Assembly (NCBI GenBank): GCA_005788585.1
Contig: SYBY01000415.1
Span: 1 to 13,833, forward strand
Direction of reading: 5' to 3'
Source: Actinomycetota bacterium
GTDB lineage: Bacteria; Actinomycetota; Thermoleophilia; Solirubrobacterales; Solirubrobacteraceae
DNA length: 13,833 nt
Under the pieces are notes generated by a model. It worked only from the letters and a program-made list of their open reading frames with translations, did not search any database and was not told where the DNA came from. Positions 26-13,491 of the stretch are shown one piece after another. Position numbers and translations under genes: made by a program. Each line of letters begins with the position of its first letter. Within the stretch, counting starts at the first letter, position 1.

Positions 26-385
26 ATGGCCCGAGTGCTGATTGTTGACGACGCCGCGTTCATGCGGAAGATGGTGGGCGACGCCCTCGCGAAGGGCGGC
101 CACGAGGTGGTTGGCGAGGCCGCCAACGGCCAGGAGGCCGTTGAGCGCTTCCAGGAGCTCAGCCCCGAGGTGATGACGCTGGACATCACCATGCCCGAGA
201 AGGACGGCCTGCAGGCCCTGCGCGAGATCATCGCGATGGACCCGAGCGCGAAGGTCATCATGTGCTCGGCGCTGGGCCAGGAGAGCAAGGTCCTCGAGTC
301 GATCAAGATCGGCGCGAAGGACTTCGTGGTCAAGCCGTTCCAGGCCGATCGTGTCCTCGGCGCGATCGAGAAGGCCCTCGGCTAA
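26..385 (+). CDS. cheY: CheY-type chemotaxis response regulator
   Basis: Single-domain receiver of 119 residues, the normal CheY length, with no output domain. The acidic pocket (D8, D9), phosphoacceptor D53 in a TLDITMP context, switch serine S81 and K103 in VVKPF are all present. The sequence closely follows the CheY style of Gram-positive and Thermotoga motors (IVDDAAFMRKM near the start, KDFVVKPFQADRVL near the end). In that family the chemotaxis kinase CheA phosphorylates CheY, and CheY-P binds the flagellar switch (FliM and FliN/FliY) to alter rotation. The ATG at 26 is preceded by a clear GGAGG at 11-15, ten bases upstream. The gene comes just before motA but is separated from it by 185 nt with a strong hairpin, so it may end its own transcript or be only partly coupled to the motor operon. 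What lies upstream is outside the window. Confidence 0.95.
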   Translation: MARVLIVDDAAFMRKMVGDALAKGGHEVVGEAANGQEAVERFQELSPEVMTLDITMPEKDGLQALREIIAMDPSAKVIMCSALGQESKVLESIKIGAKDFVVKPFQADRVLGAIEKALG

Positions 386-389
386 ATGC

Positions 390-412
390 GCGCCCGCCTT
401 CACGGCGGGCGC
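390..412 (+). terminator. GC hairpin after cheY, possible terminator
   Basis: A perfect 9-bp inverted repeat (GCGCCCGCC at 390-398, GGCGGGCGC at 404-412) with a 5-nt loop TTCAC begins four bases after the cheY stop codon. No T-run follows, so it is not a classical intrinsic terminator. Strong hairpins without a U-tract are often proposed as terminators or 3'-end stabilisers in high-GC actinobacteria. It could stop or attenuate transcription from cheY into motA, or protect the cheY mRNA end. The stem is certain; its function is inferred. Confidence 0.45.
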
Positions 413-442
413 CCGCAGGACCTCGACGACCTCGGCGTAACC

Positions 443-522
443 ACCCCGCACGGGGTCGGTCTGTCCCTGCGCGCGCCCCTCGAACGTCCGGCCAGGGGGC
501 CGTATGTCCACGGTATGTGGAC
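443..522 (+). other. Hairpin-rich intergenic stretch upstream of motA
   Basis: Three short inverted repeats lie in the 185-nt cheY-motA gap: ACCCC/GGGGT (443-447/452-456, loop GCAC), CGGCC/GGCCG (489-493/498-502, loop AGGG) and GTCCAC/GTGGAC (506-511/517-522, loop GGTAT). The last is AT-richer than its surroundings and looks more like an operator dyad than a chance GC stem. No small ORF with convincing coding features was seen. The stretch may be a structured leader, a regulator-binding region, or both. It does not match the conserved blocks of the c-di-GMP riboswitches as I know them. Confidence 0.35.
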
Positions 523-527
523 GAACG

Positions 528-555
528 TAAGGGACACCACCCCGGTGACCGATGT
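528..555 (+). promoter_or_regulatory. Candidate sigma28/FliA-type promoter before motA
   Basis: TAAG at 528-531 is followed by 16 nt and ACCGATGT at 548-555. The usual flagellar-sigma consensus is TAAA, about 15 nt, GCCGATAA, so the -35 matches at 3 of 4 positions and the -10 keeps the CCGAT core. Transcription would begin near 561-563, leaving only 8-10 nt before the motA ATG at 571. That leader would lack the GGAG at 557-560, which is the best ribosome-binding site. The promoter and that site are therefore partly in conflict, which lowers confidence. Confidence 0.35.
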
Positions 556-570
556 CGGAGTCGATCCCCT

Positions 571-1401
571 ATGAAGGCTGCTACTCCCATCGGCATCATT
601 CTCTCGATGGTCCTGCTCGCACTGGGCGGGTTCCTCGAGGGTACGAATCCGGCATCACTCTTCAACGTCCCGGCGACGGTCATCATCTTCGGTGGCCTGC
701 TCGGGGTCTCCATCGCCGCGTTCGGCATGGAGGAGATGAAGAAGGTCCCGGTCCTCTACAAGAAGTCCTTCAGCATGGAGATGCCGGACTACGGCGCCAA
801 CGTGGTCCTCATGCATCACTTCGCCGACCGCGCCCGCCGCGACGGTCTGCTGGCGCTGGAGGAGGAGGCCGGGCAGCTGGAGGATCCCTTCGTGAAGAAG
901 GGCCTCGGCCTGGTGGTCGACGGCTCGGACCCGGACACGGTCGCGGAAGTGCTCGAGCTCGAGATCGAGTCGATGCAGAAGCGCCACCGTCAGGGGCAGA
1001 ACACCTTCAAGGGCGCGGGCGGCTTCGCCCCGACCCTCGGCGTGCTCGGCACCGTGATGGGCCTGCTGCACGCCCTGAGCATCCTCGACCAGCCCGAGCT
1101 GCTCGGGCCGGCGATCGCGGGCGCGTTCATGGCGACGCTGTACGGCGTCGGCGCCGCGAACATCGTCATCCTGCCGGTCGAGAACCGCCTCAAGCAGCTG
1201 ACCGAGGCGGAGGTCACTTCGCGCCAGATGGTCATCGAGGGCCTGCTCGCCGTCCAGAGCGGCGACAACCCGCGCATGGTCGCGGAGAAGCTCCTTGCGT
1301 TCGTGTCGCCGGAGCAGCGCCTCTCGGTCGAGGAGGAGCTCGAGGGCGGTCGCCCGAACCTCAAGGCCGTCGACGGCGGCGCTGAGCAGCAGGCGGCCTA
1401 G
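571..1401 (+). CDS. motA: Flagellar motor stator protein MotA
   Basis: 276-residue inner-membrane protein that with MotB forms the ion-conducting stator driving flagellar rotation. TM segments are visible at about 5-22 and 33-51, then a cytoplasmic domain with the conserved RARRDGLLALEEE stretch (about 87-99), whose charged residues in the family contact the rotor protein FliG. The pore helices follow: GGFAPTLGVLGTVMGL (about 150-165, with the conserved proline P154) and AFMATLYGVGAANIVILP (about 185-202). The charged C-terminal tail is normal. The ATG at 571 places the first TM helix directly at the N-terminus, and a GGAG lies at 557-560; longer in-frame extensions add Arg/Pro-rich sequence unlike MotA. 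It is followed after 2 nt by motB. Whether the coupling ion is H+ or Na+ cannot be decided here. Confidence 0.95.
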   Translation: MKAATPIGIILSMVLLALGGFLEGTNPASLFNVPATVIIFGGLLGVSIAAFGMEEMKKVPVLYKKSFSMEMPDYGANVVLMHHFADRARRDGLLALEEEAGQLEDPFVKKGLGLVVDGSDPDTVAEVLELEIESMQKRHRQGQNTFKGAGGFAPTLGVLGTVMGLLHALSILDQPELLGPAIAGAFMATLYGVGAANIVILPVENRLKQLTEAEVTSRQMVIEGLLAVQSGDNPRMVAEKLLAFVSPEQRLSVEEELEGGRPNLKAVDGGAEQQAA

Positions 1402-1403
1402 CC

Positions 1404-2216
1404 ATGGCCGGTCGGCGCCGGCGCGGCGGACACGAGCACCACGAGGAGCATCCCGACGAGCGGTGGCTCCTGACCTACGCCGACATGATCACGCTGCTGC
1501 TGGCGCTGTTCATCGTCCTCTTCGCGATGGGCAACACCGACCCGAAGAAGGCCGAGCCGCTCGCTGCGTCCGTGAAGGACGCGCTGAACGTCAGCATCGC
1601 TCCGGGCGGCACCGCGATCGCGGAGACCGGTGGGCAGGCCGATTCGAGCTCGCTCAAGCAGTCGGTCCCGACGCCCTCCCTGCAGGAGGCGATCTCGCAG
1701 GTCAAGCCCGTGTCGGCCGAGGAGGCCGAGCAGGAGAGCGAGCAGCTCGAGCAGCTCAAGGAGCGCATCGACGCGGCGGCCGCCGAGGACGGGCTGAAGG
1801 ACAAGGTCCAGACCAAGGTCACGCGTGACGGGCTCGTGGTGCTGCTCCTGAGCGACGACTTCCTCTTCGATTCGGGCAGCGCCGAGCTCAAGCCGCGCTC
1901 GAACCGGATCATGGCCCGCATCGCCCAGCTCCTGCGCCTGGAGGGCTCGCATGCGGTGCGGGTCTCGGGCCATACGGACTCCGTGCCGGTCAGCGGGAAG
2001 TACCCGTCGAACTGGGAGCTGTCGACCGCCCGCGCGTCGGCGGTCGTCCGCGGACTCGCCCGGAACAAGGTCTCGCCCGCGCGGATGGAAGCTGCCGGGC
2101 GCGCCTATCTGGCGCCGGTGGCCTCCAATGCGACGGACCGCGGCCGATCAAAGAACCGACGCGTGGAAATCCTCATCCCTCGACAGAAGGTCGCCACCGA
2201 GGCGACCACCGGATAG
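1404..2216 (+). CDS. motB: Flagellar motor stator protein MotB
   Basis: 270-residue partner of MotA. A short basic and His-rich cytoplasmic start (RRRR at 4-7, several His at 10-16) leads into WLLTYADMITLLLALFIVLFAM. D27 there is the ion-binding aspartate essential in the family, and the single TM helix is about 28-43. A plug/linker region rich in Glu and Gln (about 95-135, possibly coiled) precedes the OmpA-like peptidoglycan-binding domain (about 145-258). That domain shows DDFLFDSGSAELKP, GHTDSVPV (189-196), SNWELSTARA and the terminal GRSKNRRVEI block. It anchors the stator to the cell wall. An AGGCGG at 1391-1396 inside the end of motA can serve as ribosome-binding site. It is clearly co-transcribed with motA, and fliL follows after 4 nt. 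Confidence 0.95.
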   Translation: MAGRRRRGGHEHHEEHPDERWLLTYADMITLLLALFIVLFAMGNTDPKKAEPLAASVKDALNVSIAPGGTAIAETGGQADSSSLKQSVPTPSLQEAISQVKPVSAEEAEQESEQLEQLKERIDAAAAEDGLKDKVQTKVTRDGLVVLLLSDDFLFDSGSAELKPRSNRIMARIAQLLRLEGSHAVRVSGHTDSVPVSGKYPSNWELSTARASAVVRGLARNKVSPARMEAAGRAYLAPVASNATDRGRSKNRRVEILIPRQKVATEATTG

Positions 2217-2220
2217 CCCC

Positions 2221-2697
2221 ATGGACAAGAAGAAGCTCATCATCATCGTCGTCGTGGCCATCGTGGGCGCTCTGGGCGGCTACAAGATGGTGCTGGCCAA
2301 GCCGGCCGAAGAGGGGCCGAAGCCCAAGGTCGCGGGTGAGGTGTACATCCTGCCCAAGGAGTTCCTCGTCAACCTGTCCGACGGGCGGTTCGCGCGGCTG
2401 AACGTCGCCATGGAGCTCGACCACCACTACACGTCCGCGGGAGCCGTCGAGGAGTACGCCAAGGCCCATGGCGGCGGTGGCCACGGGGCCGTCGAAGTGC
2501 CCGAGGGCTTCGGCGTCCTCCCCCAGGAGGCCGTGGTCCGCGACATCATCACCGATGAGCTCACCGAGGCGACCGCGAAGCAGATCCAGCGCAGCGAGTC
2601 GCGGGAGAAGCTCAAGAAATCGATCGCGAAGCAGATCAACAAGAAGACGGATGTGAAGGTCCACCACATCCTGTTCACCGACGTCGCCGTGCAGTAG
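2221..2697 (+). CDS. fliL: Flagellar basal body-associated protein FliL
   Basis: 158-residue single-pass membrane protein: KKK at 3-5, a TM helix at about 6-26, then a periplasmic/extracytoplasmic domain beginning GEVYILPKEFLVNLSDGRFARLNVAMELD (about 39-67). The C-terminal helix-strand block (about 103-158: VVRDIITDEL, REKLKKSIAKQIN, VKVHHILFTDVAVQ) is the standard FliL ending. FliL surrounds or supports the MotAB stator and affects torque and stator stability in several species. A Gly/His-rich insert (about 83-89) splits the domain and is probably a loop. The start is fixed by the Lys-TM pattern; there is no clear Shine-Dalgarno in the 4-nt gap after motB, so translational coupling to motB is likely. 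Confidence 0.92.
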   Translation: MDKKKLIIIVVVAIVGALGGYKMVLAKPAEEGPKPKVAGEVYILPKEFLVNLSDGRFARLNVAMELDHHYTSAGAVEEYAKAHGGGGHGAVEVPEGFGVLPQEAVVRDIITDELTEATAKQIQRSESREKLKKSIAKQINKKTDVKVHHILFTDVAVQ

Positions 2698-2708
2698 GAG
2701 CCTTCGCC

Positions 2709-3128
2709 ATGTCCGACATCACCTCGCTCACCCCTTCCGCGGTCGACGCCGCGCCGCTCGACACCGGGGACGGCCTGCGCCGCCTCGCCCAGGTGCGCGT
2801 CGAGCTGTCCGTCGAGATCGGCCGCACCTCGATGTCACTGGGTGAGGCGCTCGCGCTCGGCCCCGGCTCGGTCATCGCGCTCGACCGCATGGCCGATCAG
2901 CCCGTCGACCTGCTCGTCAACGGCAAGCTGGTGGCGCGCGGCGAGGTCGTCGTCATCGACTCCGAGTACGGCCTGCGGGTCACCGAGGTCGTCGGCGCGG
3001 AGGCGCAGACCGCTGAGCCGGCGCCGGTCGCGGCCGCACCGCCGGTCGAGGCCGCCCCGGCGCAGGACGCGCCGATCGACCAGGCGGCGATCGACGCCGC
3101 CATCGCCGCCGCTGCCGCTGCCGCGTAG
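2709..3128 (+). CDS. fliN: Flagellar switch protein FliN with a C-terminal Ala/Pro tail
   Basis: 139 residues with one SpoA/FliN domain at about 25-97 (LAQVRVELSVEIGRTSMSLGEAL, then GSVIALDRMADQPVDLLVNGKLVARGEVVVID and YGLRVTEVV). FliN builds the lower C-ring of the switch and helps CheY-P binding and export-cargo docking. GGAG at 2697-2700, overlapping the fliL stop, gives an 8-base spacing to the ATG. After the domain comes a low-complexity Ala/Pro/Glu tail (about 98-122), then a short helical-looking end (123-139) with the pattern I-D-Q-A-A-I-D-A-A-I. That end resembles the N-terminal CheY-binding peptide of FliM. fliM is not found beside it, although fliL-fliM-fliN is the usual order. It could in principle be called a truncated FliM or FliY-like protein, but the length and the single SpoA domain favour FliN. 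Confidence 0.88.
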   Translation: MSDITSLTPSAVDAAPLDTGDGLRRLAQVRVELSVEIGRTSMSLGEALALGPGSVIALDRMADQPVDLLVNGKLVARGEVVVIDSEYGLRVTEVVGAEAQTAEPAPVAAAPPVEAAPAQDAPIDQAAIDAAIAAAAAAA

Positions 3129-3209: not shown

Positions 3210-6200
3210 GTGTCAACGAATCCACGGACGGCTCCCCCCGTCGCGCAGGCTCTACGCCGCCTCACGGGCGAGGGCGCTGACGCGCGCCGGGATGCGCCCG
3301 CGCACGCCCTCGACCGGCTGACGGAGCTGTTCGACCGCTGCGCCGACGCGGTGGTCGTCGTCGGCCTCGACGGACAGGTCGCGGAGGCAGACCGTGGTGC
3401 TCGCGCGGCGCTCGGCCTGGCGCCCGGGGATCCCGTCGACCAGCTGTTCGACGTCGCTGAACGCCCGCGCGCAGCCGCCGAGATCCTCCCGCGCGCGGTG
3501 CGCGAGGGCCGGTGGGACGGGACCCTGGCCGTCCGTTGGGGTGGTGCGCCGACGACGGGCCGGGCCGTGCTGTTCGGCCACCGGGCGCCCGAGGGGCAGC
3601 TGCTGGCGACCTCCGTGATCGTCGCGGCGCCTGCCGTCGAGGACGCTGCGACCTTCGACGATCTTCAGGCCGGATCGCTGGCCCTCAGCGACGCGCTGGA
3701 CCTGGCCCTGGGCGCCGCGCGTGCGCTGGCGGCCGTCCACCGCCACGGGCTCGTGCACCGCGATCTGCAGGCGCGCTCGTTCCTGCTGCCCGAAGGCGGG
3801 GCGGGGGTGCGCGTGACGGGCCTGTGGTCGGCGCGCCCCCTCGCGCCGGGGATGCTGCCCGCGCGGGAGGTCACCGCCGGGCTCGAGGGCGCGCTCCCGT
3901 ACCTCTCGCCGGAGCTGACCGGCCGCGTCAACCGTCCCGTGGACCGCCGGTCCGATCTCTATTCGCTCGGTGTCGTCCTGTACGAGCTGCTGTCGGGCCG
4001 CCTGCCGCTGGAGGCCGACGACACCCTGGAATGGGTGCACGCGCACGTCGCGCGCGTCCCCGACCCGCTGCGGGCCCACACGCCCGCTGTCCCGGAGGTC
4101 GTCGACCGCATCGTCATGCGGCTGCTCGCCAAGAGTCCCGAGGACCGCTACCAGAGCGCCGCGGGGGTGGTCGCGGACCTCGCACGTTGTGTCGCCGAGC
4201 TGCGGGACACGGGTGTGGTCGGGACGTTCGCGCTCGGATCCCAGGATGTCTCCGACGTGTTCGCCGTGCCGCAGCGCCTGTACGGGCGGACGACCGAGAG
4301 CGACGCGCTGCTCGGGGCGTTCACGCGCGTGAACGCCACCCGTCGTGGTGAGCTCGTCCTCGTCTCGGGGCCGGCGGGCGTCGGGAAGTCCTCGCTCGTC
4401 CAGTCGCTGCGCGAGTCCGTCGGGCAGACTCGGGGGACGTTCGTCACCGGCAAGCTCGACGGCGTCGCGCGGGACGTGCCGTACGCGCCGTTTGCGCAGG
4501 CCGTCGGGGAGCTCGTGCAGCAGGCGCTCGCCGAGCCGCCCGCCCGCCTGCGGGCGCGCTCCGAGCAGCTGCGCGCCGCGGTGGGCGCCAACGGCCGGAT
4601 CATCTGCGACCTCGTCCCCCGCGCCGAGCTGCTGCTGGGCCCGTGCCCGCCGGTCGGGGACCTGCCGCTGCCCGAGGCGCAGCGACGCGTGCACCGCGTC
4701 GTCGGTGACGTCATCGATGTCTTCGCCTCCGAGCACCCGGTCGTGCTGTTCGTCGACGACCTGCAGTGGGCCGACCCGGCGTCGGTGCAGCTCCTCGTCG
4801 ACCTCGCGGGGCGCGACCGCCCGACGCGTCTCGTGCTGGTCGGCGGGTACCGGGACGACGAGCTCGAACCCACCCATCCGCTGACCCTCGCGCTCCACGA
4901 GCTGCGTGGGTCCGCCGGCCTGCTGGAGCTCCCCCTGGGACCGCTCGACGCGCCCGCCCTGCAGAGCCTCCTCGAGGACACCCTGCGCGCGCCGCCGGCG
5001 GCCTGTGCCGCGCTGGCGACGCTCGTGCGCGACAAGACCGGCGGCACGCCCTACTACGTCCTGCAGTTCCTGCACGCGCTGCACCAGCGCGGGCTCATCT
5101 CGCTGGACCCGCTCGGCGGCGGGTGGCGCTGGGACCGGGACGAGATCGCCGGCGCCGACGTCACGGACAACGTCGTCGACATCATGACCGAGCGTCTCCG
5201 GCGCCTGCCGCCGGCCACGCAGCAGGTCCTGATGATCGCCGCGTGCCTCGGCGACCGGTGCGATCTTTCGACCCTCGCGATCGCGGCACGCCGACCCGCG
5301 GGCGAGGTCGAATCCGACCTGTGGGACGCGCTGCGCGAGCGCCTGCTCGTCGCGCGCGAGCCCGGCTACCGGTTCTCGCACGACCGGGTGCGCCAGGCGG
5401 CGTACGCGCTCATCGACCCGGCCGAGGCGCCTGCGGTCCACCTCGCGATCGGGCGGGCGCTGCTTGCCGACACGCCCGCGGAAGCGCTTGAGGCCCGGGT
5501 CTTCGCGATCGTCGGCCACCTCGACGCCGGGGCTGGGCTCATCGACGATCACGCCGAGCGGTTGCGCTGCGCCGAACTGCATCTCCTGGCCGGCCACCGT
5601 GCCATGGCGGCGACGGCGCTGCGGTCGGCCGCCCGGTACCTGCGGACAGGTATCGAGCTGCTGCCCGAGGATGCCTGGGAGGCCGCGCCCCGGCTGAGCC
5701 TCGATCTCCACCTCGGGTGCGCGCGGTGCGAGCACGCGGGAGGCGATCTCGACGAGACCGAGCGGCTGGTGGACCTCCTCCTCGCCCACGCCCGCGAGCC
5801 CGGCGACATCGCGGCGGCGGCGCAGATGCGGGTCGAGACCCGGCTGGCGCGCAGTCAGCCGGCCGAGGCCGCGCAGGCCGGTATCGACGCCCTCGCCCGG
5901 CTCGGCGTCGTGCTGGACGCGGATCTCTCCGACGACGAGATCGACACGGCGGCCGCACGCATGTGGGACCTGCTCGACGGCCGCCCGATCGAGTCCCTGC
6001 TGGAGCTGCCGATGACCGACGACCCGCGCATCAACGCGGTCGCCGGGCTGCTGGCCCCGGTGATGACGGCGGCGTTCCTGGGCGGCTCCACGAACCTCGG
6101 GATCCGGATCATGCTCGAGAGCGCGTTCATGAGCCTCGAGCACGGCAACGCCGCGCTGTCCCCGCTGCTGCACGCGCTGCTCGGCTCGGTGCTCGCCGCA

Positions 6201-9200
6201 CGCTTCGGTCGCCCCGAGGAGGGCCGGCGCCTCGGGCACGCCGCGCACGCGCTGGCGGAGGCCGCCGGGATCGATGCGCTGGCCGCGCAGACCGGGGTCT
6301 ACGTCGGACTGGGCAGCGTCTGGACCGACCCGTATCCGGACTGCCTGCCGTTCATCCGTGCGGGCTTCGAGCACGGGGTCGCCGTCGGCGACCTCGCGCA
6401 CGCCGCGTACTGCGGCTTCTTCTCGCTGGTCATCCGCTTCGCGGCGGGCGACCCGCTCGACGAGGTGCTGCGTGACGCCGAGCCGCGCTTCGCCTTCGCC
6501 GAGCAGATGAAGCTGCCCGAGAACCAGGACGCGCTGTCGATCGTCGAGCGCGCGGCGCGCAGCCTGCGGGGCGAGACCACGGCGCTCGGCGACTACGGCG
6601 ATGCCGACTTCGACGACGAGGCGTTCGCCGACCGGCTGCGCACGAGCCGCCCGCCGTTCTACCTGGCGATCGACACGCTGCATCGCCTCGGTGTCCTCGT
6701 CATCGCGCACCGTGTGCCTGATGCGCTCGCGGCCGCGCAGCAGTTCGACGAGGTCAGCTGGGCGGTCGCCTATCACCCCATGCTCGCGCTGCAGGAACCG
6801 TACGGGGCGCTCGCGCGGGCGGCGGCGTGGGACACGGCGTCGCCTGCGGAGCGTGACGAGATCCAGGCGCGGCTCATCGCGGCTGTCGCGCGTCTGGACG
6901 CGTGGGCGGTGCATGCGCCCGGGAACTTCCTGGCACCGGCCAAGCTCGTCGCGGCCGAGCTCGCACGGATCGAGGGCCGGGCCGAGGACGCCGCGCGGGG
7001 ATACGAGGCCGCGATCACCGCGGCGGCGGGCTCCGGGCTCATCCACTACGAGGCGCTCGCGCGCGAACGTGCCGGCCGGTGGTACCTGCGTCGGGAGCTG
7101 ACCTCCGTCGGCCTGGCCTGCCTGCATGACGCGCGCGACCGCTACGCGCGCTGGGGGGCGACGGCGAAGGTCGCGCAGCTGGACGCGGAGTTCGGCGTGC
7201 TGGCCGCAGCGCCGGCCGGGATGCCGGCGACGCCGCCGCTGGACGCGCTCGCGGTCGCCCGGAGCTCCCAGGCGATCTCTGGCGAGCTCGACCTCGAACA
7301 GCTTCCCGCGACGCTCCTGCGCCTGGCGGTGGCCGCGGCGGGCGCCCAGGCGGGCCGGCTGCTGCTCGTCGACGACGAGGGCCGGATCGACATGGTCGCG
7401 GTCGCCGAGACCGCCGACGACGAGGTGCACGTCCGGCGTGCGGCGGCCGACGATGACGACGGGGTGCCCCAGGCCGTGACCGACTACGTGCTGCGGACCC
7501 GCGAGCGCGTCCTGCTGCGAGACGCGCGCGCCGACCCGACGTTCGGCGCCGACGCCGTCATCACCGCCCGGGGCATCCGCTCGCTGCTGTGCCAGCCGGT
7601 GGTGCGGCACAGCGCGCTCGTCGGTCTCCTGCTGCTCGAGCACCGCCTGGTCGATGACGCGTTCCCCGAGGACCGGCTCGCGGCCGTGGAGATCCTCGCC
7701 GCGCAGGCCGCGATCTCCGTGGAGACCGCGCGGCTGTACCAGGACGTGCGCGAGGAGAACCGCATCCGCCGCCGCACGGAGGCCGAGCTGCGCGCCAGCG
7801 AGGAGCAGTTCCGCACCCTCGTCGAGTCGGCGCCCGACGCGATCCTCATCACCGACGAGCGCGGCCGGATCGTGCTCGTCAACTCTCGCGTCGAGCAGCT
7901 GTTCGGCTACACGCGCGACGCGCTGGAGGGCAGCCCGGCGGAGGAGCTCGTCGGCGAGATCGACTGGACGCGCATCGCGCTCTCCGCCGAGGGGACCGCG
8001 ACGCTGGAGCTGGAGCGGGCGGGCCGCCGGCGCGACGGCGCGTCGTTTCCCGTGGAGGTCACCCTCAGCCCGCTCGAGCGGCCCGGCGCGACGTGGACGA
8101 TCGGCATCGTCCGCGACGTCACCGAGCGCAAGCGCCTCGAGCACGAGCTCGAGCACGCCGCCGACCACGACGCCCTCACCGGCCTGTTCAACCGCCCGCG
8201 CTTCGAGCGCGAGCTGGCCGCGGCACTCGAGCGCGTGGGCCGCAACGCCAGCGCGGCGGTGCTGCTCGTCCTGGACCTCGACCACATCCGGGACATCAAC
8301 GACAGCCTGGGTCCCCAGGTCGGCGACGAGCTCATCCGCGCGCTCGCGCACGCGCTGCGCGAGCGCCTGCGCCCGACGGACATCCTCGCCCGGCTGGGCG
8401 GCGACGAGTACGCCTTCATCCTGTCGCGCACCGACGTGCCCGGCGCGCAGGTCGTCGGCGACGAACTGCTCGAGCTGGTCCGCACCCACGCGCTGGTCAG
8501 CGACGGGATGCGCGTCCGGACGACGGCGAGCATCGGCATCGCCCCGATCACCGTGGACGCCGGCAACGCGCAGGACCTCCTCGCCGCGGCGGATGTCGCG
8601 CTGGATCAGGCCAAGGAGGCCGGCCGGGACCGCGCGGTCGTCTACACCCCGGACGACGGCCGCCGCGCCGCCGCGCGCCACACGTGGTCGGAGCGGATCC
8701 GCCACGCGCTCGAGCACGAGGAGTTCACGCTGCACGAGCAGCCCATCCTCGACCTGCGCACCAACGAGATCACGCACGCGGAGCTGCTCATCCGCATGGA
8801 GGACGACGGCGAGCTCATCGCTCCGGCCGAGTTCCTGCCGACCGCCGAGCGCACCGGGCTCATCACGGCGATCGACCGCTGGGTCATCCGCGAGGGCGCG
8901 CGGCTGGCGGCGACGAGCGGCGGACGGCTGCTGGAGCTCAACCTGTCGGCGAAGTCGCTGGCCGATGCCGAGCTGCCCGGCTACATCCAGCAGGAGGTCG
9001 AGGCGGCGGGCGCGGATCCGGCGAACCTCGTCTTCGAGATCACCGAGACCGCGGCGATCGCGAACCTGCCCAGTGCGGCGGCGCTCGCCGAGCGGCTCAC
9101 GGCGCTCGGCTGCCACTTCGCGCTCGACGACTTCGGGGTCGGGTTCGGCAGCTTCTACTACCTCAAGCGCCTGCCGCTGCACTACATCAAGATCGACGGG

Positions 9201-9395
9201 GACTTCATCCAGACGCTCACGCGCAGCCCCACGGACCAGCACGTGACGAAGGCGATCGTCGGCGTCGCCCAGGGGCTGGGCCTGAAGACGATCGCGGAGT
9301 TCGTCGAGGACGCCGAGACGCTCGAGCTCCTGCGGACCTACGGCGTCGACTACGCCCAGGGCTTCCACGTCGGGCGTCCCGGGCCGGTGGACTGA
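3210..9395 (+). CDS. Giant sensor: PAS-pseudokinase-ATPase-GAF-PAS-GGDEF-EAL (c-di-GMP turnover)
   Basis: 2061-residue cytoplasmic protein with no TM segments or signal peptide. Order: PAS (about 36-138); Ser/Thr-kinase C-lobe only (about 145-335), with HRDLQARS at 183-190, LPYLSPELTGR at 229-239 and RSDLYSLGVVLYELLSGRLP at 247-266; AAA/STAND-type ATPase (about 358-760; Walker A GPAGVGKSS at 387-395, Walker B VLFVDDLQWAD at 512-522); helical TPR-like region (about 760-1335); GAF (about 1345-1508); short coiled linker; PAS (about 1530-1640); GGDEF (about 1647-1812); EAL (about 1828-2061). GGDEF has DLDHIRDIND at 1689-1698, active-site GGDEY at 1730-1734 and an RxxD inhibitory site at 1721-1724. 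EAL keeps E1858 (as ELL), N1911, E1943, D1973-D1974, K1994, E2030 and Q2050. The kinase lobe lacks the glycine loop and ATP-binding lysine; the HRDxK lysine is Q187, the following Asn is S190 and DFG is replaced by TGL (203-205), so it is probably inactive. Both c-di-GMP domains look competent. The GTG start fits the AGGAAG at 3196-3201. It lies between fliN and fliO, suggesting control of motility. Confidence 0.93.
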   Translation: MSTNPRTAPPVAQALRRLTGEGADARRDAPAHALDRLTELFDRCADAVVVVGLDGQVAEADRGARAALGLAPGDPVDQLFDVAERPRAAAEILPRAVREGRWDGTLAVRWGGAPTTGRAVLFGHRAPEGQLLATSVIVAAPAVEDAATFDDLQAGSLALSDALDLALGAARALAAVHRHGLVHRDLQARSFLLPEGGAGVRVTGLWSARPLAPGMLPAREVTAGLEGALPYLSPELTGRVNRPVDRRSDLYSLGVVLYELLSGRLPLEADDTLEWVHAHVARVPDPLRAHTPAVPEVVDRIVMRLLAKSPEDRYQSAAGVVADLARCVAELRDTGVVGTFALGSQDVSDVFAVPQRLYGRTTESDALLGAFTRVNATRRGELVLVSGPAGVGKSSLVQSLRESVGQTRGTFVTGKLDGVARDVPYAPFAQAVGELVQQALAEPPARLRARSEQLRAAVGANGRIICDLVPRAELLLGPCPPVGDLPLPEAQRRVHRVVGDVIDVFASEHPVVLFVDDLQWADPASVQLLVDLAGRDRPTRLVLVGGYRDDELEPTHPLTLALHELRGSAGLLELPLGPLDAPALQSLLEDTLRAPPAACAALATLVRDKTGGTPYYVLQFLHALHQRGLISLDPLGGGWRWDRDEIAGADVTDNVVDIMTERLRRLPPATQQVLMIAACLGDRCDLSTLAIAARRPAGEVESDLWDALRERLLVAREPGYRFSHDRVRQAAYALIDPAEAPAVHLAIGRALLADTPAEALEARVFAIVGHLDAGAGLIDDHAERLRCAELHLLAGHRAMAATALRSAARYLRTGIELLPEDAWEAAPRLSLDLHLGCARCEHAGGDLDETERLVDLLLAHAREPGDIAAAAQMRVETRLARSQPAEAAQAGIDALARLGVVLDADLSDDEIDTAAARMWDLLDGRPIESLLELPMTDDPRINAVAGLLAPVMTAAFLGGSTNLGIRIMLESAFMSLEHGNAALSPLLHALLGSVLAARFGRPEEGRRLGHAAHALAEAAGIDALAAQTGVYVGLGSVWTDPYPDCLPFIRAGFEHGVAVGDLAHAAYCGFFSLVIRFAAGDPLDEVLRDAEPRFAFAEQMKLPENQDALSIVERAARSLRGETTALGDYGDADFDDEAFADRLRTSRPPFYLAIDTLHRLGVLVIAHRVPDALAAAQQFDEVSWAVAYHPMLALQEPYGALARAAAWDTASPAERDEIQARLIAAVARLDAWAVHAPGNFLAPAKLVAAELARIEGRAEDAARGYEAAITAAAGSGLIHYEALARERAGRWYLRRELTSVGLACLHDARDRYARWGATAKVAQLDAEFGVLAAAPAGMPATPPLDALAVARSSQAISGELDLEQLPATLLRLAVAAAGAQAGRLLLVDDEGRIDMVAVAETADDEVHVRRAAADDDDGVPQAVTDYVLRTRERVLLRDARADPTFGADAVITARGIRSLLCQPVVRHSALVGLLLLEHRLVDDAFPEDRLAAVEILAAQAAISVETARLYQDVREENRIRRRTEAELRASEEQFRTLVESAPDAILITDERGRIVLVNSRVEQLFGYTRDALEGSPAEELVGEIDWTRIALSAEGTATLELERAGRRRDGASFPVEVTLSPLERPGATWTIGIVRDVTERKRLEHELEHAADHDALTGLFNRPRFERELAAALERVGRNASAAVLLVLDLDHIRDINDSLGPQVGDELIRALAHALRERLRPTDILARLGGDEYAFILSRTDVPGAQVVGDELLELVRTHALVSDGMRVRTTASIGIAPITVDAGNAQDLLAAADVALDQAKEAGRDRAVVYTPDDGRRAAARHTWSERIRHALEHEEFTLHEQPILDLRTNEITHAELLIRMEDDGELIAPAEFLPTAERTGLITAIDRWVIREGARLAATSGGRLLELNLSAKSLADAELPGYIQQEVEAAGADPANLVFEITETAAIANLPSAAALAERLTALGCHFALDDFGVGFGSFYYLKRLPLHYIKIDGDFIQTLTRSPTDQHVTKAIVGVAQGLGLKTIAEFVEDAETLELLRTYGVDYAQGFHVGRPGPVD

Positions 9396-9419
9396 CCCGG
9401 CGTCGGCCACCGCGACGGG

Positions 9420-9432
9420 TACCGTTGGCGGC
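9420..9432 (+). promoter_or_regulatory. Candidate leaderless promoter (-10 TACCGT)
   Basis: TACCGT at 9420-9425 ends seven bases before the ATG at 9433. A TANNNT box at this distance places the transcription start on or next to the A of the ATG, the arrangement common for leaderless mRNAs in actinobacteria. No Shine-Dalgarno precedes the gene and no clear -35 is seen. The 37-nt gap also holds a CGTCG/CGACG stem (9401-9405/9413-9417), too weak to call a terminator of the preceding gene. Confidence 0.4.
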
Positions 9433-9975
9433 ATGACGGTCGGCGAGCTGTTGCAGCGCACGCGGTCGGGCGGCGCGGCGCACGCGGAGCTCACCGCTGC
9501 GCGTGGGAGCGCGGGCAGCGTGCGGTTCACGGGCACGTGCGACTTCGCCCGCGGGCTCACGACGCTCGAGCGCGACGCTCCGGATCTGCGGCCGCTGTGG
9601 GTCGAGCTCGTGGGCGAAGAGGTCGGCCTGACCGCGGGCGGCGAGCCCGAGCAGCGCCACGTCGACCCCGACTGGGCCGGCCGCGACGTCGGGCGCTCCG
9701 CCGTGGGCCTGCTCGGCCTGCTGGAGGCGATCACCGAGCACGAGCTCGCCCTTGGCGTGGTCGCCGAGCTGCCGGCCGGGGATCCTGCGCGCTGGGTCCG
9801 GACGCTCGTGCTGCGCGTCACCGGGATCCCGCTGCCGAACGGGCGGCGTGCCGCCTCACTGCGGATCATGGCCGACGCGGACGGCCGGCTGGAGGAGCTC
9901 GACGTCACCGAGCGCCGCCTGCTCGGCGGCGCGCCGCGGGTCACGCACTCCCTGCGTCTCAGCGCCTGGCGCTGA
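9433..9975 (+). CDS. Hypothetical protein, 180 residues, between giant sensor and fliO
   Basis: I do not recognise this family. The protein is soluble-looking, with no signal peptide or TM helix, and has alternating short strands: SVRFTG at 29-34, LWVELVGEEVGL at 55-66, WVRTLVLRVTG at 121-131, AASLRIMADADGRLEELDV at 140-158, THSLRLSAW at 171-179. A helix (about 87-103) contains GRSAVGLLGLLEAI. This beta-rich shape with a DPDW...LLGLLEA segment (78-99) faintly recalls the LolA/LppX-like lipid-binding fold, but the lipoprotein signal expected for that family is absent, so the idea is weak. The gene starts 37 nt after the giant sensor and is probably expressed from its own leaderless promoter. 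G/C-ending codons and Arg/Ala richness match normal coding here. It may be a partner of the giant sensor because the two sit together between flagellar genes; there is no direct evidence for this. Confidence 0.75.
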   Translation: MTVGELLQRTRSGGAAHAELTAARGSAGSVRFTGTCDFARGLTTLERDAPDLRPLWVELVGEEVGLTAGGEPEQRHVDPDWAGRDVGRSAVGLLGLLEAITEHELALGVVAELPAGDPARWVRTLVLRVTGIPLPNGRRAASLRIMADADGRLEELDVTERRLLGGAPRVTHSLRLSAWR

Positions 9976-9992
9976 CGATCCACACGTCGATC

Positions 9993-10004
9993 GGACAAAT
10001 GTCC
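9993..10004. repeat. Short dyad upstream of fliO
   Basis: GGACA and TGTCC form a perfect 5-bp dyad around AA. The right half is part of ATGTCCAC (9999-10006), an 8-mer that also occurs in the dyad upstream of motA (504-511). It may be an operator half-site shared by the two flagellar transcription units. The match is short and no regulator can be named. Confidence 0.3.
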
Positions 10005-10014
10005 ACCGGGCCTC

Positions 10015-10041
10015 TCAAGCCGGGTGCGTGGTTGCCGACGA
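10015..10041 (+). promoter_or_regulatory. Candidate sigma28/FliA-type promoter before fliO
   Basis: TCAA at 10015-10018, exactly 15 nt, then GCCGACGA at 10034-10041. Against the flagellar-sigma consensus TAAA-N15-GCCGATAA this matches 3 of 4 and 6 of 8 positions with ideal spacing. The start point would be near 10048, giving a leader of about 40 nt to the fliO ATG. The 111-nt gap between 9975 and 10087 otherwise shows the dyad at 9993-10004 and no terminator. GCCGACG is not a rare string in GC-rich DNA, so the call is tentative. Confidence 0.4.
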
Positions 10042-10086: not shown

Positions 10087-10734
10087 ATGATTCGCCTCCG
10101 CCTCTCGGCCGTCTCCGCGGCCGCTGTCACCTGTCTGCTGCTTCCGGCCGCCACCTTCGCGGCTGAAGGCACGAAGACCACCCCTGCGCCCAAGGCTCCG
10201 ACCGGCGAGGACACGCCGATCAACGTCCCGGCGGATGACGGTGGCGCCGCCGCGACCGCGACGAGCAGCTCGAACGTCGTCCGCACGTTCGTCGGCCTCG
10301 CGATCGTCCTCGCCGTCATCTACGGCCTCTACTGGGTGCTGCGCCAGATCAAGGCCAGCCGCGAGGAGGCCACGAAGGGCGACGGCCTCGCCACGGTGGC
10401 CTCCATCGGTCTGGGCGCGAACCGCGCGCTGCACCTCGTCCGTGCCGGTGAGGACTACATCCTCGTCGGCGTCGGCGAGCACGCGATCACGCCGATCCGC
10501 ACCTACACCGCGGCCGAGGCGATCCTCGCCGGCCTGGTGCCCGACCCGGAGCAGGACGGCGTCATCGAGGGCTCGGCCACCGAGACCGGTGCGAAGGCCG
10601 CGATGCCCGCCCTGCTGCGCAAGGTGCTGGCCGCCGGTGGCGCACCCGGCGCACGGACCGCGTCGTCGAAGCCCAACCAGCTGACCGTCCAGGCGCTGCT
10701 CGGCAGCCTCCGTGAGAAGACGGTGCGGTCATGA
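10087..10734 (+). CDS. fliO: Flagellar biosynthesis protein FliO
   Basis: 215 residues. An N-terminal signal peptide (about 1-25: basic IRLRLS, hydrophobic core, likely cleavage near TFA-A) is followed by a Thr/Pro/Ala-rich extracytoplasmic linker, a TM helix (about 64-86) and a cytoplasmic domain. That domain has the FliO pattern GLGANRALHLVRAGEDYILVGVGEHAITPI (about 108-137), then a variable tail. FliO is an assembly chaperone/scaffold for the FliP ring of the export gate. It is a poorly conserved family, so position directly before fliP is strong support. The ATG at 10087 is chosen because it starts the signal peptide; a GTG 63 nt upstream would add an Arg/Pro-rich stretch. No Shine-Dalgarno precedes it: the upstream bases are C-rich. 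Its stop overlaps the fliP start (ATGA). Confidence 0.88.
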   Translation: MIRLRLSAVSAAAVTCLLLPAATFAAEGTKTTPAPKAPTGEDTPINVPADDGGAAATATSSSNVVRTFVGLAIVLAVIYGLYWVLRQIKASREEATKGDGLATVASIGLGANRALHLVRAGEDYILVGVGEHAITPIRTYTAAEAILAGLVPDPEQDGVIEGSATETGAKAAMPALLRKVLAAGGAPGARTASSKPNQLTVQALLGSLREKTVRS

Positions 10735-11366
10735 CGGGCGACGGCGGCAACGCGGTCGAACTCCTCATCCTGATCGGCGGGGTCGCGCTGATCCCGGCGC
10801 TGCTCTTCTGCGTCACGGGCTTCACGCGCATCCTCGTCGTCCTCGGCTTCATCCGCACCGGCCTCGGCACGCCGACCGCGCCCCCGAACCAGGTCCTCGT
10901 GGGCATCGCACTCTTCCTGACGATCTTCGTCATGGCCCCGACCTTCAAGGAGATCAAGACCGACGCCGTCGACCCGCTGATGGAGAAGAAGATCACGCAG
11001 GAGCAGGCGCTCAAGCGCGCCGAGGCTCCGATGCGCGAGTTCATGTTCGCCCAGACGCGCGACCGCGACATCGCCCTGTTCATGAAGCTCGGCAAGCTCG
11101 AGCCGCCGCGGACGCGCAAGGACGTCCCGACCTACGTCCTCATCCCGGCGTTCATCATCAGTGAGCTGAAGACGGCCTTCCAGATCGGGTTCCTGATCTT
11201 CCTGCCGTTCCTCGTGATCGACCTGGTGATCGCCTCGACGCTCATGTCGATGGGCATGGTCATGCTGCCGCCGGTCTTCATCTCGCTGCCGTTCAAGATC
11301 CTGCTCTTCGTCCTCGTCGACGGCTGGAACCTGGTCACGCAGGCCCTGGTGGAGAGCTTCGGATGA
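10731..11366 (+). CDS. fliP: Flagellar export gate protein FliP
   Basis: 211-residue membrane protein, core of the FliPQR export gate (five FliP subunits per gate in studied systems). Family signatures are intact: FTRILVVLGFIRTGLGTPTAPPNQ (31-54) with LFLTIFVMAP (61-70), AFIISELKTAFQIGFLIFLPF (140-160), and DLVIASTLMSMGMVMLPP (164-181) continuing into ISLPFKILLFVLVDGW (184-199). Four hydrophobic segments are visible. It is shorter than the roughly 245-residue enterobacterial FliP because it lacks the cleavable signal peptide and starts almost directly at the first TM. The start overlaps the fliO stop by 4 nt, implying translational coupling. Confidence 0.96.
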   Translation: MTGDGGNAVELLILIGGVALIPALLFCVTGFTRILVVLGFIRTGLGTPTAPPNQVLVGIALFLTIFVMAPTFKEIKTDAVDPLMEKKITQEQALKRAEAPMREFMFAQTRDRDIALFMKLGKLEPPRTRKDVPTYVLIPAFIISELKTAFQIGFLIFLPFLVIDLVIASTLMSMGMVMLPPVFISLPFKILLFVLVDGWNLVTQALVESFG

Positions 11367-11635
11367 CGAACGACACCGTCATCAGCCTCATGACGACCGC
11401 GATGGAACTCGCGCTGAAGATCGCCGCGCCGATCCTCATCGTCGGCCTCGTGGTCGGCGTGATCATCTCGATCTTCCAGGCGATCACGCAGATCCAGGAG
11501 CAGACGCTCGCGTTCGTCCCGAAGCTGCTCGCCACCGCCGCGGTGCTCGTCATCGCCGGCCCGTGGCTGCTCAACGAGCTCGTGGGCTATACCCAGGAAC
11601 TCTGGAGCTCCATCCCGACCCTGATCGGGTCATGA
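11363..11635 (+). CDS. fliQ: Flagellar export gate protein FliQ
   Basis: 90 residues, the normal FliQ size, with two TM hairpin helices (about 17-39 and 55-75) joined by the conserved QAITQIQEQTLAFVPK loop (39-54). FliQ packs around the FliP-FliR core of the type III export channel. GGAG at 11351-11354 gives an 8-base spacing to the ATG, and the start overlaps the fliP stop by 4 nt. Confidence 0.96.
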   Translation: MTNDTVISLMTTAMELALKIAAPILIVGLVVGVIISIFQAITQIQEQTLAFVPKLLATAAVLVIAGPWLLNELVGYTQELWSSIPTLIGS

Positions 11636-12420
11636 CCGGCGCAGAGACGCTGCTCCAGCAGTTCGGCGAGCAGCAGGTGCTCGGCTTCTTCGCGGTCCTC
11701 GCACGCGTGATGCCGCTCTTCATCGTCGCGCCGCTGTTCAGCTCGCGGTCGATGCCCCCGCGCGTGCGAGGCGTGGCGGCTGTCGGCATCGCGTTCGGCC
11801 TCGCGCCGATCGTCGCGCGTGGCGCCGTGATGCCCACGGACGTGCTCGGGATCGCGTTCCTCATGGGCAAGGAGCTGCTGATCGGCTTCTCCTACGCCTT
11901 CGTGCTGGCCTGCCTGTTCGCCGCCGTGGCCACCGCCGGCACGCTCCTGGATTTCAGCGTCGGCTTCGCGTTCGGCGCGGCGGTCGACCCGCTGACGGGC
12001 AACAACTCCGCGGTCATCTCGCAGATGTACGTGATGTTCGCCACGGCGATCTTCGTCATCGTCGGCGGCGTCGAGTGGGTCGTGCAGGGCCTCGCGCGCA
12101 CGTACGACCTGGTGGGGATCACCGAGATGCCGGAGCTCGGCACGATGGTGCAGGGCGCCGTCGAGTCCTTCGTGCAGATCTTCGTGTCGGCCATCGAGAT
12201 CTGCGGCCCGATCCTCCTGGCCATGATCATCACCGACGCGGCGTTCGGCATGGTCAGCCGCGTCGCGCCGTCGCTGAACGTCTTCGCTGTCGGCTTCGCG
12301 GTGAAGATCGGTGTCGGCCTGCTCCTGCTGGCGCTCACCTTCCCCTACGTCGGCATGTGGATCGGCGACGAGGTCCAGGGCTCCGTGACCGATGCGCTGC
12401 GCACCCTGAAGGTGGCCTGA
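11632..12420 (+). CDS. fliR: Flagellar export gate protein FliR
   Basis: 262-residue polytopic membrane protein, usual length. Recognisable blocks: ARVMPLFIVAPLFSSRSMPPRVR (24-46), GKELLIGFSYAF (79-90), GTLLDFSVGFAF (103-114) and TDAAFGMVSRVAPSLNVFAVGFAVKIGVGL (201-230). FliR joins FliP and FliQ in the export gate and contacts FlhB. The ATG at 11632 overlaps the fliQ stop as ATGA and starts the protein in normal FliR fashion; an in-frame start 69 nt upstream would lie inside fliQ and add a non-homologous segment, so it is rejected. flhB follows after 3 nt. Confidence 0.95.
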   Translation: MTGAETLLQQFGEQQVLGFFAVLARVMPLFIVAPLFSSRSMPPRVRGVAAVGIAFGLAPIVARGAVMPTDVLGIAFLMGKELLIGFSYAFVLACLFAAVATAGTLLDFSVGFAFGAAVDPLTGNNSAVISQMYVMFATAIFVIVGGVEWVVQGLARTYDLVGITEMPELGTMVQGAVESFVQIFVSAIEICGPILLAMIITDAAFGMVSRVAPSLNVFAVGFAVKIGVGLLLLALTFPYVGMWIGDEVQGSVTDALRTLKVA

Positions 12421-12423
12421 CCC

Positions 12424-13491
12424 ATGGCCGGTGAGAAGACAGAAAAGGCGACACCCAAGAAGAAGGCAGACTCGCGCAACCAGGGCACGGTCGCGAAGTC
12501 CCAGGACCTCAACGCCGCGGTCATCACGATCGTCGGCCTGTTCGTGATCGCTCTCACCGGCCAGAAGATGGTCGAGCTCATGGGTGAGCTCACGCGCGAG
12601 TCGCTCACGAAGATCGCCAACCCGCAGAACGTCACCCGCGAGGGCATCGGCCCGCTCGTGTCCGAGGCGGGCATGGTGATGCTTCAGTGCATCATGCCGA
12701 TCGCGATGGCGTGCGTCGTCGCTGCGGTGGTGATCCTCGTCGCCCAGGTCGGCTTCAAGATCACGCCGAAGGCCGCCCAGCCGAATCCGAAGAAGCTCGA
12801 TCCGCTCAAGGGCGCCAAGCAGGTCTTCGGCCCGAACGCCGCGGTCGAGGGGATCAAGTCGATCCTCAAGGTCGTCTTCGTCGCCGGCCCCGCGCTGATC
12901 GTCGTCGTGCCGGTCATGCCGCAGATCGCGTCGATGGTCGGTATCGGCCCGATCGAGCTGGGGATCATGACCAATGAGCTGATCATGAAGATCGCCCGCA
13001 ACGTCGCGGTGGCCTACATCGTCCTCGGGATCGCGGACTACATCTACCAGAAGTACCGCACCGAGAAGGAAATGAAGATGGACAAGCAGGAGGTCAAGGA
13101 CGAGGCCAAGAACATGTCGCTTCCAGCGGAGGTCAAGATGGCCCAGAAGCGCAAGGCCTTCGAGCTGTCCCGGGCGCGCATGATGTCCGCGGTGCCCGAC
13201 GCCGACGTCGTCGTCACCAACCCGACGCACTTCTGCGTCGCGCTGAAGTACTCCGATGGCATGCTGGCCCCCGAGGTCGTGGCCAAGGGCCAGGACCTCG
13301 TCGCCTTCCGCATCCGTGAGCTCGCCGCCGAGCACGGCGTCCCGGTCGTGCCCGACCCGCCGCTCGCGCGCGGGCTGCACAAGACGGTCGAGGTCGGCCA
13401 GCAGATTCCCGAGGACTTCTTCCAGGCCGTCGCCCACGTGCTCGCCTTCGTGTACCGCACTCGCCCGATGCGTCAGACGGTGGCCGCATGA
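12424..13491 (+). CDS. flhB: Flagellar export switch protein FlhB
   Basis: 355 residues. The N-terminus EKTEKATPKKKADSRNQG (4-21) is the standard charged start, followed by four TM segments (about 31-50, 84-108, 148-165, 190-206) and a cytoplasmic domain. The autocleavage motif NPTH lies at 266-269 within VVVTNPTHFCVALKY; cleavage after the Asn switches export from rod/hook to filament substrates in the family. The linker 207-256 is rich in Lys and Glu, as expected. PDPPLARGLHKTVEVGQQIPEDFFQAVAHVLAFVYR (310-345) is the typical ending. AAGGTGG at 12409-12415, within the end of fliR, is the ribosome-binding site. Its stop overlaps the flhA start. Confidence 0.96.
   Translation: MAGEKTEKATPKKKADSRNQGTVAKSQDLNAAVITIVGLFVIALTGQKMVELMGELTRESLTKIANPQNVTREGIGPLVSEAGMVMLQCIMPIAMACVVAAVVILVAQVGFKITPKAAQPNPKKLDPLKGAKQVFGPNAAVEGIKSILKVVFVAGPALIVVVPVMPQIASMVGIGPIELGIMTNELIMKIARNVAVAYIVLGIADYIYQKYRTEKEMKMDKQEVKDEAKNMSLPAEVKMAQKRKAFELSRARMMSAVPDADVVVTNPTHFCVALKYSDGMLAPEVVAKGQDLVAFRIRELAAEHGVPVVPDPPLARGLHKTVEVGQQIPEDFFQAVAHVLAFVYRTRPMRQTVAA

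Follow-up and report, generated by a model that had tools for sequence, protein, structure and literature searches.

A giant GGDEF-EAL sensor protein encoded beside fliN in a Solirubrobacteraceae flagellar gene run carries a PAS domain in place of the kinase N-lobe

A 13,833-nucleotide stretch of DNA from an Actinomycetota bacterium of the family Solirubrobacteraceae (assembly GCA_005788585.1, contig SYBY01000415.1), called the window here, contains a run of flagellar genes and within it a giant gene for a protein of 2061 residues. Throughout the ortholog group of this protein (12 members), the N-lobe of a Ser/Thr kinase is missing and its position is taken by a PAS domain. The remaining half of the kinase is, judged by its residues, catalytically dead, and the C-terminal output is a GGDEF-EAL pair predicted to act on cyclic diguanylate (c-di-GMP). 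On balance, and with about even confidence, we read the protein as a sensor c-di-GMP phosphodiesterase that favours motility and was remodelled from a kinase-ATPase-GAF sensor of the HstK/CP1 kind.

The Pfam matches of the giant protein are, in order, a Ser/Thr kinase covering only profile positions 87–253, AAA_16, GAF, PAS, GGDEF, and EAL. Together with the PAS-1 domain described below, they bear out the 2061-residue frame and the domains (PAS, kinase C-lobe, ATPase, GAF, PAS, GGDEF, and EAL) named in an initial annotation of this DNA. That annotation saw the "kinase C-lobe" and did not draw out that the half-kinase is dead or that PAS replaces the N-lobe group-wide.

Orthologs were sought among 5.8 billion proteins in clusters at 90% identity. 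In this search 7986 candidates were scored, and the resulting lists are best hits and no census. The ortholog group amounts to 12 clusters among the candidates scored. The window protein and 10 further clusters (P0002–P0011) are 2017–2089 amino acids long with the whole layout common to all 11, and the 10 are 58–73% identical to the window protein at 97–100% coverage. The entry for the window protein itself comes from a record with a contig of 11,581 bases. A profile built from these 11 full-length members scores them at 3948 to 3488 bits, as expected by construction. The same profile gives 1640 bits to a protein of Svornostia abyssi (Solirubrobacterales), and the next protein falls to 1453 bits. 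The Svornostia protein is the twelfth member (P0012); it has 1184 residues, is encoded on a 5-Mb contig, and corresponds to the first half only, likely from a broken or mis-sequenced gene that has lost its frame. The group is probably a small set of bacteria in or near Solirubrobacterales. A search limited to residues 30–175 returned four proteins, all of them group members; since it missed known members, it does not show that other lineages lack the region. In plasmid records, 30 listed matches are 36.8–38.0% identical at 71–72% coverage (from residue 176 onward), and none of the 5000 records counted, out of at least that many, reaches a coverage of 80%. Near the start of the gene (3210–3260, + strand), a short conserved motif, [LV]xxALR, is present in nine of the 11 full-length members, and P0002 and P0008 are without it because their annotated starts lie later. 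In the model of the window protein the motif is helical, and it is a possible docking peptide.

Relatives were surveyed in best-hit lists of 140 proteins, the window's own included, and 80 genome loci. Their outputs were labelled with profiles built in this analysis. The kinase was scored at the HRD aspartate, the lysine, the asparagine, and the DFG aspartate, and a set was counted as intact with D, K or R, N, and D at these positions. The count covers the 219 of 220 proteins that have kinase C-lobe and ATPase hits; L049, a fragment lacking them, was dropped. None of the 12 group members has an intact set, compared with 117 of the 165 relatives that end in a histidine kinase. Intact sets are found in two of 11 other c-di-GMP-ended relatives and in eight of 31 unassigned relatives, which may include histidine kinases because the histidine-kinase profile was built from the C-termini of mostly myxobacterial hits. 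Within the group, the HRD aspartate is kept in 5/12 members and the lysine, asparagine, and DFG aspartate in 0/12 each, while the APE glutamate is retained in all 12. Decay of the kinase motifs is also common outside the group, and the group is distinguished by its total loss and by the missing N-lobe.

The PAS fold of residues 32–146 is supported, yet Pfam alone makes no call there in the window protein. A hidden N-lobe in residues 1–150 was considered and rejected, although VIA-align places kinase chains along a 345-residue model starting near its residue 35; a model of the PAS region alone fits PAS domains much better. Over the 11 full-length members, the half-kinase has a mean pairwise identity of 0.666 with 70 of 181 columns invariant, which places it fifth of eight segments. 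The ATPase (0.631), the helical region (0.597), and PAS-1 (0.511) are less conserved.

The AAA_16 match has an E-value of 1.7e-33, and the Walker A and B motifs are present in 11/11 full-length members. The Walker B motif is of the DD type on a P-loop ATPase core, as in STAND-type signalling ATPases; a match to nSTAND1 (E 5e-4, 20.1 bits) lies below the 27.1-bit cut-off of that family. No solved relative of residues 352–1334 was found (phmmer, E 0.01). For the region after the ATPase, a winged helix followed by helical repeats is our guess, and the helical repeats of the initial annotation find weak support in profiles. The GAF match has an E-value of 2.3e-10. A Pfam scan at E 0.01 gives no match to the HisKA or HATPase families in the giant protein, which has GGDEF and EAL instead. 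The protein is probably cytosolic.

Conservation is highest in the EAL domain, with a mean identity of 0.845 and 149 of 235 columns invariant. Nine of its residues (E1858, N1911, E1943, E1946, D1973, D1974, K1994, E2030, and Q2050) do not vary in the 11 full-length members, and, with the alignment to RbdA as a guide, we take these to be the residues for metal binding and catalysis. The GGDEF signature reads GGDEY in three members, GGDEF in one, GGNEY in one, and DGDEF in six; the RxxD pattern of the I-site is kept in all 11. Given this fixed set of EAL residues and the erosion of the GGDEF signature, c-di-GMP breakdown appears the likelier main activity. Of the "synthesis and breakdown" proposed in the initial annotation, breakdown is retained and synthesis as an equal part is not. 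Among solved structures, the PAS-GGDEF-EAL part of RbdA (5xgb) matches best, at E 3e-97 over residues 1521–2059. Other structure matches are 4rnh ("Motility regulator"), presumably MorA, and 5m1t ("MucR Phosphodiesterase"). RbdA is described as mainly a phosphodiesterase, stimulated by GTP held in its GGDEF domain (PMC10874727), and an inactive, GTP-binding GGDEF domain is reported to be used in a similar way in PdeB at the flagellated pole (PMC9061725).

The giant protein does belong, as initially annotated, to a kinase-ATPase-GAF lineage in which a histidine kinase is often the C-terminal part, here with a GGDEF-EAL output. The exchange of output is not singular. GGDEF plus EAL is found in 20 of the 140 proteins, 11 of these 20 being the ortholog group. 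The 80 loci come from a scan of a genome collection with two generic peptide patterns, which gave at least 80 loci, none of those listed being recognisably actinobacterial by title; among them, one has GGDEF plus EAL (Scytonema sp. NIES-4073, L051) and two more have GGDEF alone. Elsewhere, c-di-GMP domains occur on the kinase-ATPase-GAF proteins P0013–P0019, P0031, P0115, L051, and L060. A kinase N-lobe is recognisable in ten of these 11, the exception being P0015, which starts inside or near the C-lobe. A tree of 64 of the 220 proteins, hand-picked for spread, was obtained from the ATPase-to-GAF region with a quick LG+G4 search without a mixture model. The program warned that L060 and L017 are joined as long branches, that L070 is a long row, and that composition is uneven. 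On this tree the ortholog group forms one side of a branch with a Shimodaira-Hasegawa-like approximate likelihood ratio test value of 100, and P0015, on a long branch and possibly truncated, is its sister with support of 95. The other c-di-GMP-ended relatives are placed apart from the group. The c-di-GMP output changed at least four times on the tree, gains and losses being indistinguishable. As early as 2005, a Clostridium thermocellum protein of 1826 amino acids with a kinase, six TPRs, and GGDEF was reported (PMC1262709). Sorangium cellulosum So ceGT47 (L071, G001) shows a large expansion of such proteins: with 150 of 415 candidates scored, at least 146 AAA_16 matches reach E 1e-3, and most of the strongest lie in frames of about 1300–2160 amino acids.

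The features of the protein and of its surroundings are collected in Table 1. All genes from the cheY-like gene to flhB, the giant gene included, lie on the + strand, and in the translation we also read the first codons of flhA. The initial annotation placed the gene between fliN and fliO; fliN does adjoin it within a flagellar run, but an open reading frame (ORF) of 180 residues precedes fliO. This ORF has no Pfam or NCBIfam match and no solved relative (phmmer, E 1). The guanine-plus-cytosine (GC) content of the giant gene is 0.742 overall, compared with 0.637–0.719 for the flagellar genes and 0.752 for fliN, and its third-position GC (0.937) is inside the range of its neighbours (0.907–1.000). 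Neither a sigma-70-like promoter nor a terminator-like site was found in the gaps flanking the gene, other promoter types not being covered. As a distant comparison, Thermomicrobium roseum has motA, motB, fliL, fliM, fliN, and fliO in succession, and no gene lies in its gap between fliN and fliO. No fliM is present between fliL and fliN in the window (2697–2709), where T. roseum has a gene of the FliM/FliN family.

Table 1. Features of the giant protein and its flagellar surroundings in the window
Feature	Residues	Position	Strand	Remark
Giant gene	2061 aa	3210..9395	+	GTG start; PAS / half pseudokinase (predicted) / AAA_16 ATPase / helical / GAF / PAS / GGDEF / EAL
PAS-1	32–146	3303..3647	+	Occupies place of kinase N-lobe
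Kinase C-lobe only	150–330	3657..4199	+	Catalytic residues lost
Degenerate catalytic loop HRDLQARS	183–190	3756..3779	+	Lys and Asn of HRDxKxxN lost
DFG aspartate position	Gly204	3819..3821	+
AAA_16 ATPase	352–548	4263..4853	+
Walker A GPAGVGKS	387–394	4368..4391	+
Walker B LFVDDLQWAD	513–522	4746..4775	+
Post-ATPase region	549–1340	4854..7229	+	No Pfam family in window protein
GAF	1345–1510 (Pfam 1361–1503)	7242..7739	+
PAS-2	1526–1646 (Pfam 1532–1642)	7785..8147	+
GGDEF domain	1647–1812	8148..8645	+
RPTD (I-site pattern RxxD), ILARL, GGDEY signature	1721–1734	8370..8411	+
EAL domain	1826–2060	8685..9389	+	ELL variant at 1858–1860, catalytic set kept
cheY-like, motA, motB, fliL		26..2697	+
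fliN		2709..3128	+	Upstream neighbour of giant gene, gap 81 bp
ORF without family match	180 aa	9433..9975	+	Between giant gene and fliO; 37 bp after giant gene
fliO		10087..10734	+
fliP, fliQ, fliR, flhB		10731..13491	+

The window was also searched on both strands for a flagellar promoter pattern, using the consensus quoted in PMC8325347 with up to three mismatches and 200 shuffles for comparison. With a 15-bp spacer there are six matches against 0.9 expected, a number reached by 0/200 shuffles; spacers of 14 and 16 bp give one and three matches, respectively. Five of the six lie inside gene bounds and one at 10015–10041, in the gap before fliO; none is in the gap upstream of the giant gene. 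Nothing is drawn from the excess, because shuffling does not preserve codon structure. An antisense open frame of 2248 residues (3252–9998, − strand) lies opposite the giant gene and is probably a by-product of the very high GC content.

The domain order, the PAS domain in place of the N-lobe, the loss of kinase residues, the intact Walker and EAL sets, and the adjacency to fliN are read directly from the sequence. From here we infer a predominantly phosphodiesterase activity, coupling through the half-kinase, gating by the ATPase, an effect on motility, and a sigma-factor link. A ligand signal at PAS-1 would pass through the dead half-kinase, acting as a structural coupler and not as an enzyme, to the ATPase, whose assembly state would be altered by ATP binding. 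The state of the ATPase, together with input from GAF and PAS-2, would set the arrangement of the GGDEF-EAL pair. GTP on the eroding GGDEF domain would be an allosteric co-signal, and hydrolysis of c-di-GMP would fall to the EAL domain. A drop in c-di-GMP at the site of flagellar gene expression would then promote motility. One possible route is the release of a sigma factor of the flagellar type by an anti-sigma factor that depends on c-di-GMP, by analogy with RsiG-WhiG. Such a pair, with a single-motif RsiG and a WhiG sigma factor in the flagellar clade, has been reported in three Thermoleophilia species, and in Rubrobacter, diguanylate cyclase and phosphodiesterase genes have been reported in or near a type IV pilus cluster (PMC8325347). 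The ATPase-gated integrator proposed in the initial annotation appears plausible. A bolder version, which we regard as tentative and rather doubtful, has the PAS domain physically seated as the N-lobe. The result would be a chimeric two-lobed module, a PAS-capped half-kinase switched by the binding of a ligand instead of ATP. This module would drive a phosphodiesterase that is gated by the ATPase and reserved for the flagellar operon.

Several observations weigh against these proposals. In the 345-residue model, the predicted local distance difference test score of the half-kinase is below 50 at 213–246 and over most of 268–288, and the best Foldseek match of the half-kinase model, PknB, has a template modelling score of 0.39 by query length. 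The model is thus poor in the half-kinase, and the exact fold there is tentative. With a mean identity of 0.754 and 83 of 166 columns invariant, the GGDEF domain ranks second in conservation and is therefore under constraint, and with GGDEY and the kept I-site pattern that of the window protein could make c-di-GMP. The Svornostia protein matches up to residue 1028 of its 1184 and nothing beyond, and it is the one named member on which the order-level placement rests. The flagellar position of the gene is seen in one window only.

A two-way enzyme, as proposed in the initial annotation, with GGDEF and EAL both active, a sensor that chooses between synthesis and destruction, and some inputs that brake motility, is rather unlikely. 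In its favour, GGDEY, RxxD, and the DLD..IND and AKxxGR motifs stand in register in the window protein, the GGDEF domain is the second most conserved segment, and MorA and MucR are known bifunctional tandems (PMC10874727). The group as a whole speaks against it, with DGDEF or GGNEY in 7/11 members and the exact GGDEF in 1/11, against an EAL set that is the same in 11/11. Alternatively, the protein may be a general c-di-GMP sensor without a flagellar tie, inserted by chance between fliN and fliO. A single neighbourhood, the distances of 81 and 37 bp to the neighbours, the adjoining ORF without a family, a GC content above that of most flagellar genes, and the adjacent fliN and fliO of T. roseum fit such an event. 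We consider it improbable given the common strand, the short gaps devoid of the promoter and terminator sites sought, and the third-position GC. Flagellar genes of Actinobacteria are also reported to be highly clustered and relatively conserved in order (PMC10746217).

The loss of the catalytic residues and the N-lobe in 12/12 members would also suit a kinase part that is a decaying, functionless relic, with the PAS, ATPase, GAF, and GGDEF-EAL parts alone mattering. This is quite improbable for a segment that is fifth of eight in conservation, above the ATPase, the helical region, and PAS-1, and that keeps its APE glutamate in every member. An assembly artefact or a chance fusion of neighbouring genes has nothing but the unusual length in its favour and can be given almost no probability. 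The check for a fusion artefact left the frame standing, and this explanation is rejected because 10 further full-length ortholog clusters share the layout and the narrow range of lengths.

Under the preferred reading, a sensor phosphodiesterase favouring motility, the giant protein is a testable example of a pseudokinase becoming a coupler. It is a clean natural case of a kinase that has lost its ATP-binding half to a sensor domain and conserves the other half. The repeated changes of output, be they gains or losses, make the family well suited to a study of the signal that an ATPase-GAF front hands on to its output. Should relatives have the gene in the same flagellar position, it would be a candidate motility control point in little-studied, basal Actinobacteria; c-di-GMP studies in Actinobacteria are said to centre on non-motile genera.

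Proteins of this kind are known, because HstK/cbSTKIII proteins, the kinase, TPR, and GGDEF protein of 2005, and the CP1 pseudokinases have been described. Proteins with a Ser/Thr kinase, GAF, and a histidine kinase form the cyanobacterial cbSTKIII family, which includes HstK (PMC2176072); NCBI names the type "trifunctional serine/threonine-protein kinase/ATP-binding protein/sensor histidine kinase". The giant protein shares with it the kinase fold, AAA_16, long middle, and GAF in the same order, with both Walker motifs in the ATPase and GAF between the ATPase region and the output. Among the matches listed, relatives ending in a histidine kinase are 36–41% identical to it over 65–84% of the length. 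It differs in lacking a complete Ser/Thr kinase and in having GGDEF-EAL instead of the C-terminal histidine kinase. Other kinase-ATPase-GAF proteins with GGDEF or GGDEF-EAL likewise have c-di-GMP domains where most listed relatives have a histidine kinase. The CP1 pseudokinases, described in 2025 as about 40% of CP1 kinases, are all linked to the COG3899 predicted ATPase and often to GAF/PAS (PMC12599244). With its degraded kinase motifs and AAA_16 ATPase, the giant protein is probably of the same type. Both CP1 examples tabulated in that paper have an entry at the VAIK position, hence an N-lobe; its main text contains no occurrence of GGDEF or EAL, and its sole mention of an N-lobe concerns another family (PMC12599244). 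RbdA (PA0861), the best hit among solved structures, shares the PAS-GGDEF-EAL order and ELL instead of EAL; its aligned chain is without the half-kinase, ATPase, and GAF front, and its signature is GGDEF. To our knowledge, PdeB of Shewanella has no ATPase. PdeB resembles the giant protein, as read here, in a GGDEF domain that regulates EAL with a tie to the flagellated pole, and is reported to differ in its periplasmic and PAS sensor front (PMC9061725). A search that did not reach subscription journals and supplementary files found no published account of the giant-protein layout in a flagellar position. A c-di-GMP output in the family and a dead kinase with an ATPase are not new. What appears new, with no description found, is the replacement of the N-lobe by PAS and the complete loss of kinase residues, combined in one lineage with a GGDEF signature in erosion and an EAL set that does not vary. 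The giant protein is thus a lineage-specific remodelling of the known kinase-ATPase-GAF sensor family and not a wholly new system.

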